A stretch of DNA of 64,000 bases from Fusobacteria bacterium ZRK30 (lineage in GTDB: Bacteria > Fusobacteriota > Fusobacteriia > Fusobacteriales > Fusobacteriaceae). The stretch lies in NCBI GenBank assembly GCA_024628785.1, contig CP102405.1:558001-622000 (forward strand), in the 5' to 3' direction. Made by a program: the position numbers and the translations under genes. Below the pieces are notes generated by a model. It had not been told where the DNA came from and did not search any database. It worked only from the letters and a program-made list of their open reading frames with translations. Positions 22,871 through 44,954 of this stretch are shown in pieces; position 1 is the first letter of the stretch, and the number at the start of each line of letters is the position of its first letter.

Positions 22871-22897
22871 AAACCAGTCTTCTGACTGGTTTTTTTG
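22871..22897 (+). terminator. Terminator of the tRNA cluster
   Basis: AAACCAGTC-ttct-GACTGGTTT followed by further T residues. Confidence 0.92.
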
Positions 22898-22996
22898 TTT
22901 ATTGAGTATATACCTTATAGATTTGATGAAAATAACTTGTAAAAAAAAGATAAAGGAGTAAAATATAAAGTATATATAAAGAAGTGGAGTGATTTG

Positions 22997-23950
22997 ATGA
23001 AGAAGTTAACTATATTTGATATAGCTAAAAAATCTGGAGTAGGAAAATCAACGGTATCTCGTGTATTGAATCACGATGAAAATGTAAAGGATGAAACCAG
23101 GGAAAAGGTATTGAAAGTTATAAATGAGATGAACTATAAACCATCTATAAATGCAAGGGGGATGAGGTCAAATAACAGTCGTGTAATAGGGATTATCACC
23201 AGTCGTTTAGATTCATCATCTGAAGCACAGGCTGTCAGGGGTATGCTGGAGATCATCTACAGTATGGGTTATGATGTGGTCCTTGCTGAGAGTTTGTTTG
23301 ACCAGGAAAAAACAAAGGAACATGTAGAGATGTTTATAAATAAAAAGGTGGAGGGAATAATTTTGTTTGCCACCAGTGGTGTAGAGTATGATTATCTTAA
23401 AAAAATAAAAGTGCCGATTGTTATGATGGGCCAGGAAGTAAAGGGGTTCACTTCGATAGTTTATGATGATTATGGTGCTGTGGAGAAAATTTTGAAAGAG
23501 TTTCAAAATATGGGATTAAAAAAAATAGCCTATATGGGGGTAGATCTAAGTGATCGGACTACCGGGTATAGGAGATATCAGGCTTATGAGGAATTTGTAA
23601 ATGAAAATAATATGAAAAATATAAGTGTCTTTGGAGATTTTACCTATAAAAAAGCCTATGAGCTGACTGAAGTTTTAGTGGAGCATAAAATAGATGCGAT
23701 AGTCTGTGCCACCGATAATTTGGCTTTGGGAGTCAGAAAATATCTGGCAGAAAAACATATTGAAAATATAGTTGTCAGTGGTATAGGGAAAAATGAATTG
23801 TTAAGTTTTTTATATGAAAATCATATTACGGTGAATTTATCTTATAAAAAATCAGGAATAGAGGCAGGGAAGATGATTTTTAAGATGTTATCCGGTGGGT
23901 CTGCAGATGAAAAGATAGTTATGGAATCACGCTTAGTCAAGGGGAAATAA
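22997..23950 (+). CDS. treR: LacI-family trehalose operon repressor
   Basis: A 317-residue LacI/GalR regulator. The N-terminal helix-turn-helix reads TIFDIAKKSGVGKSTVSRVLNHDENV (about 5-30), with the hinge YKPSINARGMRS. The sensor domain closely follows the text I remember for E. coli TreR (TRLDS-S-E, FxSxVYDDxGA, DxTTGxRRxxAY, CATDxLALGxxKYL), which binds trehalose 6-phosphate. The neighbours treB and treC support this role. The ATG at 22997 follows GTGGAG; the TTG one codon earlier is rejected. A matching palindromic operator lies before treB. Autoregulation is possible but no second operator is visible upstream of treR. Confidence 0.9.
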   Translation: MKKLTIFDIAKKSGVGKSTVSRVLNHDENVKDETREKVLKVINEMNYKPSINARGMRSNNSRVIGIITSRLDSSSEAQAVRGMLEIIYSMGYDVVLAESLFDQEKTKEHVEMFINKKVEGIILFATSGVEYDYLKKIKVPIVMMGQEVKGFTSIVYDDYGAVEKILKEFQNMGLKKIAYMGVDLSDRTTGYRRYQAYEEFVNENNMKNISVFGDFTYKKAYELTEVLVEHKIDAIVCATDNLALGVRKYLAEKHIENIVVSGIGKNELLSFLYENHITVNLSYKKSGIEAGKMIFKMLSGGSADEKIVMESRLVKGK

Positions 23951-24018
23951 AAAGTTCTATAATGAAAAGGTAAAAGTGTGGGATTTGAAACAAAATATAC
24001 TAAAAAAACACAAAAAAA

Positions 24019-24048
24019 TTGACAGATTATAAATTGATGTGATAGAGT
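24019..24048 (+). promoter_or_regulatory. Promoter of treBC
   Basis: TTGACA (24019-24024), 18-base spacer, TAGAGT (24043-24048). Confidence 0.65.
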
Positions 24049-24075
24049 ACCTATAAGAAAAATTTTTGTCTAAAA

Positions 24076-24091
24076 TTGGGAACGTTCCCAA
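24076..24091. promoter_or_regulatory. TreR operator upstream of treB
   Basis: TTGGGAACGTTCCCAA is a perfect 16-bp palindrome with the central CG typical of LacI-family operators. It lies about 28 bases after the -10 box and 42 bases before the treB start, a position for repression. The assignment to TreR is inferred from the adjacent regulator gene. Confidence 0.85.
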
Positions 24092-24133
24092 GAATGTTTT
24101 TATCTGAAAAAATTAAAATAGGGGAGGAGTGAA

Positions 24134-25573
24134 ATGGCTAAAATTTCAAAAGATGATGTAAAAAAACTTATTGAACTTGTTGGTGGAAAAGACAATGTTG
24201 CAGCTTTAAGTCACTGTGTTACAAGGATGAGGTTTGTTTTAAAATATGAGGAAAAGGCTGATATAGAGGGAATAGAAGCTTTAAAATCTGTAAAAGGAAC
24301 TTTTACCAGTGGCGGTCAATTTCAAGTTATTATTGGACCAGGTGTGAAAGATTTTTATAATAATTTCGTAGATCAAACAGGGGTAGCATCTATGGATAAG
24401 GATGAAGCTAAAAAGGCGGCAAAACAAAATATGAATGTGCTGGAGAGAACAATCTCACACCTGGCAGAGATATTTGTACCGCTGTTACCGGCAATTATAG
24501 TTGGAGGTCTTATATTAGGGTTCAGAAATGTAATAGGTGATATTAAATTGATGAATGGTGGTACTCAGACACTTACAGAGATAAGTCAGTTCTGGGCCGG
24601 GGTACATTCTTTCTTGTGGCTTATAGGGGAAGCGATATTTCACTTCCTGCCGGTAGGTGTAACTTGGTCGGTAGTTAAAAAAATGGGAGGGACACCTATA
24701 CTTGGTATAGTTTTGGGTATTACTCTGGTATCGGGTCAATTAATGAACGCCTATGCCATTGGGGTAGTAGAACCGGATGTGTGGAATTTTGGTTTTGCAA
24801 CTATGGAAAAAGTGGGGTATCAGGCACAGGTGATTCCGGCAATATTAGCAGGTATGTCATTGGCGCTTATTGAAAATAAAGTAAAGAAAATGGTGCCGGA
24901 TTATTTAACTTTAGTGATAGTTCCATTTGTATCTCTGTTGGGAGCAGTTATCTTGGCACATGCTTTTATTGGTCCTTTAGGGAGATTAATAGGTGATGGA
25001 GTGGCATTGGTAGCAAAAGCGGCATTGACTGGACCATTTGCAGTGGTGGGATCGGCATTGTTTGGATTCCTGTATGGTCCCCTTGTAATAACCGGTGTAC
25101 ATCATACTACTAATGCGGTGGATCTGCAATTGGTTCAAAATTTAGGAGGGACTATGTTATGGCCGTTAATAGCTCTATCAAATATAGCTCAAGGGTCGGC
25201 GGTATTAGGTATAGTGATAGCTAACAAAAAAGATAAGCTTGAAAAAGAAGTGTCTGTACCGGCTGTTATATCAGCATATTTAGGAGTAACGGAACCGGCA
25301 ATGTATGGTATTAATTTAAAATATAAATATCCTATGTTATGTGCAATGGTTGGATCAGCGGCAGCTGCAATAGTTGCAGGGATGTTTGGTGTAATGTCCA
25401 ACGGTATAGGGGTAGGGGGATTACCGGGAATTTTATCTATTCAGCCCCAGTATTGGGCAGTATATGCAGTTTGTATATTGATTGCTATTGTTGTGCCGGT
25501 TATACTTACTATGGCTGTATTTAAAAGGAAGCAATTAAGTTTGAATAAGGTGGCGGCAGTTGAGGCTGAGTAA
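24134..25573 (+). CDS. treB: PTS trehalose-specific EIIBC component
   Basis: A 479-residue phosphotransferase permease that imports and phosphorylates trehalose to trehalose 6-phosphate. The N-terminal EIIB domain (1-90) has the phospho-accepting Cys28 in ALSHCVTRMRF. The EIIC membrane domain (about 110-470, about ten segments) contains ITGVHHTTNAVD and YLGVTEPAMYGINLKYKYP. There is no EIIA domain, so phosphate must come from a separate EIIA-Glc-like protein encoded elsewhere. GAGGAG precedes the ATG. It lies behind a palindromic operator and in front of treC, the order known from E. coli treRBC. Confidence 0.93.
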   Translation: MAKISKDDVKKLIELVGGKDNVAALSHCVTRMRFVLKYEEKADIEGIEALKSVKGTFTSGGQFQVIIGPGVKDFYNNFVDQTGVASMDKDEAKKAAKQNMNVLERTISHLAEIFVPLLPAIIVGGLILGFRNVIGDIKLMNGGTQTLTEISQFWAGVHSFLWLIGEAIFHFLPVGVTWSVVKKMGGTPILGIVLGITLVSGQLMNAYAIGVVEPDVWNFGFATMEKVGYQAQVIPAILAGMSLALIENKVKKMVPDYLTLVIVPFVSLLGAVILAHAFIGPLGRLIGDGVALVAKAALTGPFAVVGSALFGFLYGPLVITGVHHTTNAVDLQLVQNLGGTMLWPLIALSNIAQGSAVLGIVIANKKDKLEKEVSVPAVISAYLGVTEPAMYGINLKYKYPMLCAMVGSAAAAIVAGMFGVMSNGIGVGGLPGILSIQPQYWAVYAVCILIAIVVPVILTMAVFKRKQLSLNKVAAVEAE

Positions 25574-25676
25574 TATCTAAAGTTTAGAGGGTTTTTTTAT
25601 GGATCTCTCTGATTGTATAAATATAAAATGTTGAAGAAAATATAAATTTTAAGAGCAGCGAAGAAGAGGAGAAGGT

Positions 25677-27302
25677 ATGAGAGAGTTTGCAAAGGGATCG
25701 GTGTATCAGATCTATCCGAAAAGTTTTAATGATACTACTGGTTCTGGTCAGGGAGATATCAGAGGAATAATTGAAAAATTAGATTACATAAAGGAATTAG
25801 GGGTAGAATTTATATGGCTGACTCCGATATATTCATCTCCTATGAATGATAATGGTTATGATGTGGCTGATTATACTAAGATTAATCCAGAGTTTGGAAC
25901 TATGGAAGATTTTGAAGAATTAGTGGAAGAATCGAAAGAACGTGGGTTGAAAGTCATGCTGGACATGGTGTTTAATCATACATCTACTGATCATGAGTGG
26001 TTCCAAAGGGCGTTGGCAGGAGAGAAAAAATATCAGGATTACTATATATTTAAAGACTCTAAAGATGGGGAAGTTCCTACTAACTGGGTATCTAAATTTG
26101 GAGGGACAGCGTGGGGGTATGTTGAAAAATTAGGTAAATATTATCTTCATCTATTTGATAAAACCCAGGCGGACCTCAATTGGGAAAACCCAGAGGTAAG
26201 GGAAGAGATATATAAAATAACTAATTTTTGGCTGGAAAAGGGAGTTAAGGGATTCAGGCTGGATGTAATAAATCTTATAAGTAAACCTGTTCTATATATG
26301 GATGATGAAACAGGAGACGGAAGACGGTTCTATACAGATGGTCCGAAAATACATAGATATCTGAAGGAATTAAATGAAAAAACCTTTGGAAGATATGAGG
26401 ATGTTGTTACTGTAGGAGAGATGAGTAGTACCTCTATTGAAAACTGCGTCAAATACAGCAGTATAAAGGAAAAGGAATTGAGTATGACATTTAATTTCCA
26501 TCATTTGAAGGTAGATTATAGGGATGGGGATAAGTGGAGTCAGATAGATTTTGATTTTTTAAAATTAAAAGAGTTATTCAATACTTGGCAGACAGAGATG
26601 GATGCAGGAGGAGGCTGGAATGCGTTGTTTTGGTGTAACCATGACCAGCCTAGAATAGTCAGCAGATTTGGAGATGATACAGAGTATCACAGGGAAAGTG
26701 CCACAATGCTTGGGACAGCTGTTCATATGATGAAGGGAACTCCGTATATATATCAAGGTGAAGAGTTTGGGATGACCAATGCAAAATATAGATCTATAGA
26801 TATGTATAGAGATGTTGAATCCTTAAATTATTATAAAATATTAAAATCAGAAGGGAAATCGGAAGATGAAATATTAAAAATATTAGGAGAAAAATCCAGA
26901 GATAACTCCAGGACTCCTATGCAGTGGGATGATGGTGAAAATGGAGGGTTTACAGATGGAACTCCTTGGCTGTTCCCGTGTGAAAATTATAAAAAGGTAA
27001 ATGCTAAAAATGCACTTTTAGACAAAACTTCTATATTTTATCACTATAAAGAACTGCTGAGAATCAGAAAAGAATTCCCGGTAGTAGCTTATGGAAATTA
27101 TGAAATAATAGATATGGATAACTCTCAATTATATGTGTATAAAAGAAAATATCAAGGGAAAGAGATCCTGGTAATATGTAATTTTTACAGGGAAGAGGTT
27201 GAGTATGACATAGATTTAGATGGGTATGAACTTCTGAATAGTAATTATAATGGAAAAAGTGATAGAATCAGACCCTATGAATCCAGGATATATATTAAAT
27301 AA
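25677..27302 (+). CDS. treC: Trehalose-6-phosphate hydrolase
   Basis: A 541-residue glycoside hydrolase family 13 enzyme that splits trehalose 6-phosphate into glucose and glucose 6-phosphate in the cytoplasm. The (beta/alpha)8 motifs are in order: DMVFNHTS (about 96-103), GFRLDVINLI with nucleophile Asp196, VGEMSS with acid Glu248, and CNHDQPR with Asp323. The N-terminal text YQIYPKSFNDTTGSGQGDIRGI is typical of the oligo-1,6-glucosidase/TreC branch. Its position after treB decides for TreC. The start follows GAGGAGAAGG. A terminator follows directly. Known alternative names treA/treC refer to the same activity in different bacteria. Confidence 0.92.
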   Translation: MREFAKGSVYQIYPKSFNDTTGSGQGDIRGIIEKLDYIKELGVEFIWLTPIYSSPMNDNGYDVADYTKINPEFGTMEDFEELVEESKERGLKVMLDMVFNHTSTDHEWFQRALAGEKKYQDYYIFKDSKDGEVPTNWVSKFGGTAWGYVEKLGKYYLHLFDKTQADLNWENPEVREEIYKITNFWLEKGVKGFRLDVINLISKPVLYMDDETGDGRRFYTDGPKIHRYLKELNEKTFGRYEDVVTVGEMSSTSIENCVKYSSIKEKELSMTFNFHHLKVDYRDGDKWSQIDFDFLKLKELFNTWQTEMDAGGGWNALFWCNHDQPRIVSRFGDDTEYHRESATMLGTAVHMMKGTPYIYQGEEFGMTNAKYRSIDMYRDVESLNYYKILKSEGKSEDEILKILGEKSRDNSRTPMQWDDGENGGFTDGTPWLFPCENYKKVNAKNALLDKTSIFYHYKELLRIRKEFPVVAYGNYEIIDMDNSQLYVYKRKYQGKEILVICNFYREEVEYDIDLDGYELLNSNYNGKSDRIRPYESRIYIK

Positions 27303-42330: not shown

Positions 42331-42359
42331 TTGATGCAGTTACTAAAGAATACTATAAT
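42331..42359 (+). promoter_or_regulatory. Promoter of the suf operon
   Basis: TTGATG (42331-42336), 17-base spacer, consensus TATAAT (42354-42359), about 40 bases before sufC. No IscR- or Fur-like palindrome is obvious around it. Confidence 0.75.
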
Positions 42360-42398: not shown

Positions 42399-42959
42399 AT
42401 GTCAACATTATTGGAGATAAAAGGGTTAAAATCAAAAGCAGATGAAAAAGCTAAAGCTGGAATATTTCTTTCATTTCAATACCCGGAGGAGATCCCTGGA
42501 CTTACAGTGGAGGATTTTTTGAGAGCTTCAAATGGTTCAATAACAGGAAAAAGACAATCAATAACAGGGTTTAGAAAAAAATTACATACAATGATGGAAG
42601 AACTGCATATAGATAAATCTTATGGAGACAGGCATTTGAATGTAGGGTTTTCTGGGGGAGAGAAAAAGAAAAATGAAATTCTTCAAATGGCTATCTTAGA
42701 ACCAAAGGTGGCTATCCTAGATGAAACAGATTCGGGGCTGGATATTGATGCAGTCAGGATCGTATATGAAGGTGTAGAAAAGTTAAGAAATGAAAATAAT
42801 GCAATTATAGTAATCACTCATTATAACAAGGTACTTCAATACTTAAAGCCTGATCATGTACACATATTACACGATGGGAGAATTGTAAAATCTGGTGGGG
42901 TTGAGTTGGCTCATGAGATTGAAAAAGATGGTTTTGAAGAAATAAAAAGGGCATTTTAG
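42399..42959 (+). pseudogene. sufC: SufC ATPase lacking the Walker A region (internal in-frame deletion)
   Basis: SufC is the ABC-type ATPase of the SUF Fe-S scaffold SufBC2D. Here 186 residues are encoded instead of about 245-250. The start MSTLLEIKGLK is normal, but it passes directly into SKADEKAKAGIFLSFQYPEE, which is normally some 60 residues further on; the missing part contains the P-loop GPNGxGKST. Still present are the Q-loop Gln27, signature FSGGEKKKNE (84-93), Walker B VAILDETDSGLD (104-115) and His141. Without Walker A, ATP hydrolysis is not expected. The frame stays open and the ribosome site is weak (ATGGATG). Either a decayed gene, a repurposed protein or an assembly error; I mark it as a broken gene. 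Confidence 0.85.
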
Positions 42960-42970
42960 GGGTGAAAAAA

Positions 42971-44515
42971 ATGGAAACAAGAACGCATGTAGAAGATGTA
43001 GATAGAGGAATATATGATGTTATAGATAAAGAAAATCACAGTTATAAGAGTAAAAAAGGGTTAACTGAAGAGATTGTGGTGGAGATGTCAAAAGAGAAGA
43101 AAGAACCTCAATGGATGCTGGATCTCAGATTAAAATCACTAAGAATTTACAATAAAAAACCTATGCCAACTTGGGGAGCAGATCTTTCAGAGCTGGATAT
43201 AGATGGGATAATTCACTATGTAAAGCCTGATACAGAACTAAATGAATCCTGGGAAGAAGTGCCCAGTGATATAAAAAATACCTTTGATAGATTAGGAATA
43301 CAGGAAGCTGAAAAAGCATCTCTGGCAGGGGTAGGAGCTCAGTATGACTCAGAAGTTGTATATCATAAAGTAAATAAAGAGTTGGAAAAATTAGGAGTAA
43401 TCTACACAGACATAGAAACAGCTGTAAAAGAACATGAAGAGATAGTAAAAAAATACTTCATGAAACTGATAACTCCTAACGATCATAAATTTTTAGCCCT
43501 TCACGGAGCAGTCTGGTCGGGAGGATCATTTGTATATGTGCCAAAGGGTGTTCATGTAGAACTGCCTTTACAATCATATTTTAGACTGAATGCTAAGGGG
43601 GCGGGCCAATTTGAACACACGATGATAATAGTAGAAGAGGGAGCCAGTCTCCACTTCATAGAGGGCTGTTCAGCACCAAAGCATACTGAACAGGCACTTC
43701 ATGCTGGAGCAGTAGAGTTATTTGTAAAAAAAGGAGCTAAACTAAGATATTCGACTATTGAAAATTGGTCTAGAAATATGTATAACCTGAATACTAAAAG
43801 GTGTGTAGTAGAAGAAGATGGAATTATTGAATGGATTTCTGGTTCATTTGGTTCAAAGGTTTCTATGTTATACCCAATGAGTATTTTAAAGGGAGAGAGA
43901 GCCAGATGTGAATTTACAGGTATAAGTTTTGCTTCTACAGGCCAGTACCTGGATACTGGTGCCAAGGTAGTCCATGTAGCTCCTTATACAATTTCTATAG
44001 TAAACTCTAAGTCTATTTCAAAGAATGGAGGTAGGGCATTTTATAGGGGATTGTTAAAAGTGGCTCCTAATGCTCACTCTGTGAAAGCAACAGTGAACTG
44101 TGAATCGCTGATGCTGGATAATATATCAAAATCCGATACTGTACCTACAATAGAATTATTAAATGACCAGGTAGATATCGGACTAGAAAACATTAGTTCT
44201 TATGAAGATGACATTTTAAACTATGCTGTAGGAAAATTAAAGGGTTTAGAAGAGATAACGTTATATTGTGACGCTGTTTCTCGTAAAACGCCGGTTATAG
44301 CATTTAATGTAGAGGGGGTTCATCCCCATGATGTGGCTCAAGTGCTGGATTTAAAAAATGTGGCTATCAGGACAGGGCATCATTGTACTCAGCCGCTAAT
44401 GAAGTATTTGGAGATACCATCATGTTGCAGGGCTAGCTTTTCAATCTATAATACTTATGAAGATGTAGATAAATTAGTTGAAGGGTTGTATAAAGTAATT
44501 AGTTACTTTAGATAG
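42971..44515 (+). pseudogene. sufB: SufB-SufS chimaera (SufB N-terminal part fused in frame to SufS C-terminal end)
   Basis: Residues 1-404 are SufB, the Fe-S scaffold subunit (HGAVWSGGSFVYVPKGVHVELPLQSYFR, EFTGISFASTGQYLDTGAKVVH, VNCESLMLDN with the conserved Cys377, SDTVPTIELLNDQVDIG). SufB normally continues HEATVGxIxxEQLFYLMSRG. Here the frame changes at VDIG/LENI (near base 44180) into the last 110 residues of SufS, the cysteine desulfurase: VIAFNVEGVHPHDVAQVLD, RTGHHCTQPLMKYL with active-site Cys472, and ASFSIYNTYEDVDKLVEGL. The SufC-docking end of SufB, all of SufD, and the PLP-lysine part of SufS are missing. The ATG at 42971 follows AGGGGTG; a GTG three codons earlier overlaps it. 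Confidence 0.9.
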
Positions 44516-44525
44516 GAGGAAGAAA

Positions 44526-44954
44526 ATGGATTTAGATAAAATTTATACTGAAGTTATTATGGATCACAATAAGAGCGGGCATAATAAAAGAGAGTTAGAA
44601 AATCCTGATTATACAGAGAGAGGTCATAATCCAAATTGTGGAGATGACTTTACAATTCAATTAAAAATTGAAAGAAATAAAATAGTAGATGGTGGGTTTG
44701 CAGGAGTAGGGTGTGCTATCTCTACAGCTTCAGCCTCAATTTTATTTGATTTAATAATTGGAAGAGAAGTACAGGACGGGAAAAGGATAGTAGAGAACTT
44801 CTTGAAAAAGATAAAACAAGAAGAGATCAGTGAAGGTGATAGGGAAGAATTAGAAGATGCTGGGTTGTTAGAGAATATATCTAATATGCCGGGGAGAGTA
44901 AAATGTGCTACATTAGCCTGGAATGGAGTGAAAGTTATCTTCGAAAAATTATAA
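44526..44954 (+). CDS. sufU: SufU-type Fe-S assembly / sulfur-transfer protein
   Basis: 142 residues of the IscU/SufU fold. The metal-ligand set is complete: Cys38 and Asp40 in NPNCGDD, Cys63 in GVGCAIS, and Cys127 in GRVKCATLAW. The stretch between (NFLKKIKQEEISEGDREELEDAGLLENISNMP) is the SufU-specific insertion. In Firmicutes SufU binds zinc and accepts sulfur from SufS. Here its partner SufS survives only as the C-terminal tail of the upstream chimaera, so how SufU would be loaded is unclear. TAGGAGGAA precedes the ATG. No defect is seen in this gene. Confidence 0.93.
   Translation: MDLDKIYTEVIMDHNKSGHNKRELENPDYTERGHNPNCGDDFTIQLKIERNKIVDGGFAGVGCAISTASASILFDLIIGREVQDGKRIVENFLKKIKQEEISEGDREELEDAGLLENISNMPGRVKCATLAWNGVKVIFEKL

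Follow-up and report, generated by a model that had tools for sequence, protein, structure and literature searches.

The suf locus

The window considered here is a stretch of 64,000 nucleotides (positions 558001-622000 of contig C2) from the 3.6 Mb genome G000, which is assembled in five contigs. G000 is a marine-type fusobacterium whose 16S sequence, among plasmid records, comes nearest to Ilyobacter polytropus (93.5%), a level that places it no lower than in a Fusobacteriaceae-like family; from its genome architecture the genus may be Psychrilyobacter, of which strain B1 is described with a chromosome, a chromid and 30 rRNA genes (PMC10580919). The suf operon of the window is composed of the following elements:

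42331..42359, + strand: possible sigma-70-type promoter of the suf operon, TTGATG-17-TATAAT, agreeing with the consensus at 10 of 12 positions
42399..42959, + strand: sufC remnant of 186 amino acids, counted from the ATG equivalent to the start of the intact gene; it still encodes the ABC signature and Walker B but no Walker A
42432..42450, + strand: junction of a 183-bp in-frame sufC deletion at a direct repeat that is imperfect over ~19 bp and exact over a core of about 5 bp
42962..44515, + strand: sufB::sufS fusion frame with a GTG start (alternative ATG at 42971)
42962..44173, + strand: SufB-derived part, residues 1-404 of 470; N-terminal part and β-helix core retained, C-terminal SufC-docking domain absent
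44174..44181, + strand: junction of a 2187-bp in-frame deletion at a shared Ile-Gly, with microhomology of a few bp
44174..44515, + strand: SufS-derived C-terminal part, residues 287-399 of 399; RTGHHC active-site cysteine loop retained, PLP-lysine region absent
44526..44954, + strand: sufU, full length, with its zinc-ligand Cys/Asp motifs kept and an unusual M95K substitution

The fusion frame is uninterrupted up to the stop codon that ends at 44515 and encodes 514-517 amino acids, depending on the start. In it, residues 1-404 of SufB run directly into the C-terminal ~113 residues of SufS. The NCBIfam SufB profile matches fusion residues 14-419 with 599.6 bits (cut-off 346.4), and Pfam SUFBD_core covers residues 204-404. 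The NCBIfam SufS profile (TIGR01979) is matched at positions 290-403 only, by fusion residues 402-514, with 128.6 bits (cut-off 475.1); positions 270-371 of Pfam Aminotran_5 fall on residues 402-502. These matches agree with the initial annotation, which had read residues 1-404 as SufB and 405-514 as the end of SufS in an open frame, and had recognized that the SufC-docking end of SufB, SufD and the PLP-lysine region of SufS are gone. The join, which it had placed at a shared Ile-Gly near 44180, is found by alignment at 44174-44181. When SufB and the SufS fragment are combined in one alignment, the SufS fragments show only 17-25% identity, a sign that they are misplaced there.

The missing portions comprise the 66 C-terminal residues of SufB and residues 1-286 of SufS. 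A SufS cysteine loop deprived of the PLP lysine cannot run the PLP desulfurase reaction. When aligned with SufB of E. coli (chain 5awf), the fusion has its junction at the HEA motif, where IGLEN replaces IGHEA. The cysteines that align with E. coli SufB Cys254 and Cys405 are kept, and the position of His433 is occupied by leucine. To judge from the alignment, the glutamate at the position of residue 434 is contributed by the SufS sequence by chance.

SufU follows normally, as had been noted, and scores 154.6 bits against TIGR01994 (cut-off 92.5). The promoter had been called good; its 10 of 12 consensus positions stand, but promoter-like sites are no commoner in the region than in shuffled sequence (12 against 12.1), so that the match lends this judgement weak support.

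Comparison with an intact operon

The nearest relative compared, G007, belongs to the same genus. It serves as a proxy for the ancestor, and the repeat lengths given above are therefore approximate. Its suf operon is intact and syntenic, with sufC (247 amino acids), sufB (470), sufD (373), sufS (399) and sufU (142), and it occupies the same place as in G000, between Crp-type regulator/permease genes and an rRNA operon. In protein sequence, the kept parts of SufC and SufB are 94-95% identical to their G007 counterparts, and the SufS fragment is 79% identical.

The alignment of the two operons contains exactly two large gaps in G000; their lengths, 183 and 2187 bp, are each divisible by three. 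The larger deletion begins in sufB, at codon 405, and ends in sufS, at codon 287. The initial annotation had offered a large in-frame loss from an ancestral order sufB-sufD-sufS as one possibility, and the G007 operon supports it; measured against G007, the deletion is 2187 bp long, where about 2.4 kb had been estimated. The smaller deletion removes about 61 residues of SufC, including the Walker A sequence GPNGAGKS, and the remnant matches only positions 69-243 of the TIGR01978 profile. This deletion had escaped the initial annotation and is central to the verdict on the operon.

When the first 46 kb of the window is set against G007, 59 gene pairs can be compared, and only two of them are internally shortened in G000, namely sufC and the fusion; two further pairs that were flagged differ at the start codon only. 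A segment of ~4.4 kb at 22896-27255 is unmatched in the syntenic stretch of G007 and is possibly an insertion or a replaced segment.

The synonymous divergence from G007 changes abruptly along 42962-44954: it is ~0.06-0.15 where sufB begins, ~0.5 in the middle of sufB, ~0.7 in the sufS part and ~0.5 in sufU. This unevenness suggests that the operon is a recombination mosaic.

Loss of residues essential for SUF function

SUF cannot function in E. coli without Lys40, the Walker A residue of SufC; the docking site of SufC is the C-terminal helical domain of SufB and SufD, and the residues required in SufB include Cys405 and residue 434 (PMC6006206). Of the elements expected of a functional SUF system, the SufC Walker A motif, the SufB docking domain, SufD and the SufS PLP lysine are all missing from G000, and SufU is the only one present. 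The locus also has two of the marks of a decayed operon: 1) an intact, syntenic orthologue in a close relative; 2) the loss of residues known to be essential. Since such residues are missing, the fusion protein most likely cannot build Fe-S clusters, and the suf pathway of G000 is very probably dead. The same losses speak against the idea, raised in the initial annotation, that the fusion is an unusual minimal Fe-S scaffold.

Fe-S cluster assembly elsewhere in the genome and in its congeners

The G000 genome contains a single SUFBD core, and no second SufB or SufD is found in it. An intact pair of adjoining genes, nifS (391 amino acids) and nifU (122 amino acids), is located at 420 kb of contig C2, a second nifU lies at 1790 kb of the same contig, and a desulfurase of the TIGR01977 type is encoded at 523 kb of contig C1. 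A genome-wide search of this kind had been proposed in the initial annotation, and its suggestion that the operon is decaying while the cell depends on a different system gains from the outcome: sufC is broken as well, and nifS and nifU are present.

NifU-family matches occur in all eight same-genus genomes, G000 included. The SUFBD core is absent from six of the eight, two of these six being 98-99% complete. This distribution implies that SUF is dispensable in the group.

Fusobacteriota, Bacillota and Halanaerobium account for most of the 80 related suf loci that were compared. In these loci the suf genes found are separate, and neither a SufB-SufS fusion nor an internally shortened SufC occurs in any of the 80. 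In locus L086, which is on a short contig, a SufC frame of 180 amino acids starts only at residue 72, apparently because the contig end cuts it off. A search of the literature on SUF in Fusobacteriota returned nothing directly on point.

Selection on the remaining sequence

Several observations count against decay. The pairwise dN/dS values between G000 and G007 are low (0.11 for sufC, 0.05 for the sufB part, 0.15 for the sufS part and 0.07 for sufU), the frame has been kept at both deletions (1 in 9 by chance) with no later stop codon or frameshift, and SufU looks intact. The divergence behind the pairwise values may, however, mostly predate the deletions. When the SufB changes are polarized by outgroups, eight fall on the G000 side and three on the G007 side. 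Several changes in the Suf proteins of G000 are rare: S178L and A339V in SufB introduce residues that are never or hardly seen among the 80 relatives, K31N in SufC (numbering of the aligned segment) is a rare substitution at a conserved site, and M95K in SufU affects a column that is 97% methionine. The G007 side likewise carries one rare SufB change, I104M. In a branch-specific codon model, omega = 1 on the G000 branch fits equally well as any other value, because the synonymous sites to the outgroups are saturated. Taken together, these observations at most lean towards relaxed selection on the suf remnants of G000.

Origin of the fusion gene

By combining the above information, it is possible to propose how the locus arose. 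The ancestor would have carried an intact sufCBDSU operon. It then suffered two in-frame deletions, independent of each other and both flanked by short direct repeats, which probably occurred by replication slippage or microhomology end joining. The 183-bp deletion took out the Walker A region of SufC, and the 2187-bp deletion the C-terminal domain of SufB, all of sufD, and sufS to its middle. The loss would have been tolerated because NifS/NifU-type proteins encoded elsewhere supply the clusters, presumably as in the congeners without SUF. We thus regard the locus as a recently disabled, dispensable sufCBDSU operon in a cell whose clusters come from NifS/NifU, with a probability of about 0.86.

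An improbable alternative is that sufU alone remains in use, with a partner such as the TIGR01977-type desulfurase. The remnants would then persist in frame because out-of-frame deletions would silence sufU by translational polarity. The full-length SufU with its metal-ligand residues and the reading frame preserved at both deletions are in keeping with this idea; the destruction of SufS, the usual partner of SufU, and the M95K change argue against it, as do the congeners without SUF, which seem to manage without SufU as well.

It is still less probable that the true genome has an intact sufCBDSU operon, like that of its closest relative, and that the assembly collapsed twice. Ten full-length 16S rRNA genes lie in the interior of contigs, an indication that long reads were used for the assembly. 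The homology at the junctions amounts to a few base pairs, far too short for a graph collapse, and both gaps lie in frame within a single dispensable operon, the other 57 gene pairs being free of comparable gaps. The collapse that the initial annotation had offered as an alternative was rejected on these grounds. A scan of genome contigs, which may omit records very near the window, yielded no second assembly of the same species.

Very improbable, finally, is a functional fusion: a carrier of sulfur or Fe-S, made of the SufB core and the SufS cysteine loop, that NifS would feed and that would have SufU and the shortened SufC as its partners. The frame open over both junctions, the retained cysteines of both parts and the low dN/dS would fit such a carrier. 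Against it stand the loss of the SufC-docking domain, of the His433 equivalent, of SufD as a whole, of Walker A in SufC and of the lysine region in SufS, the absence of this form from the 80 relatives, and the rare substitutions at conserved SufB, SufC and SufU sites. Its most specific version, a working single-chain Fe-S/persulfide carrier whose SufS loop would take sulfur from NifS and pass it to the SufB core without the SufC ATPase or SufD, is more improbable still.

The disabled operon is ordinary gene decay, caught early. As such, it offers a clean early-stage case of a redundant Fe-S assembly system being lost in Fusobacteriota, with an intact close relative available. It also calls for caution, as in-frame fusion genes born of deletions may be mistaken for new proteins: family scanners would label this gene SufB, its score being above the SufB cut-off, though the pathway is very probably dead.

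Relation to known systems

The operon shares its gene order, with a promoter-proximal sufC and a terminal sufU, with the sufCBDSU operons of Fusobacteriota and Bacillota (G007, Propionigenium maris locus L042, Fusibacter and Veillonella). Its kept SufB part is 94% identical to that of G007 and 74-77% identical to those of Fusobacteriaceae loci. Unlike these operons, it has no sufD, sufB and sufS are fused, and SufC is devoid of Walker A. The NifS/NifU (NIF/ISC-type) proteins of G000 perform the same cellular task as SUF with an unrelated scaffold, and their system is intact.

The SUF-like minimal system SMS (SmsB-SmsC) likewise consists of one SufB-type scaffold and a SufC-type protein, without SufD. 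In contrast to SmsB, the G000 protein is a true SufB whose C-terminal end is missing, and its SufC lacks Walker A; the fusion reaches 192.4 bits against the NCBIfam SmsB profile, below the cut-off of 650. Four related genomes (G014, G016, G025 and G026; loci L034, L035, L032 and L033) each encode a single weak SufBD-core protein in frames of 306-351 amino acids, and these proteins possibly represent SmsB-type minimal systems.
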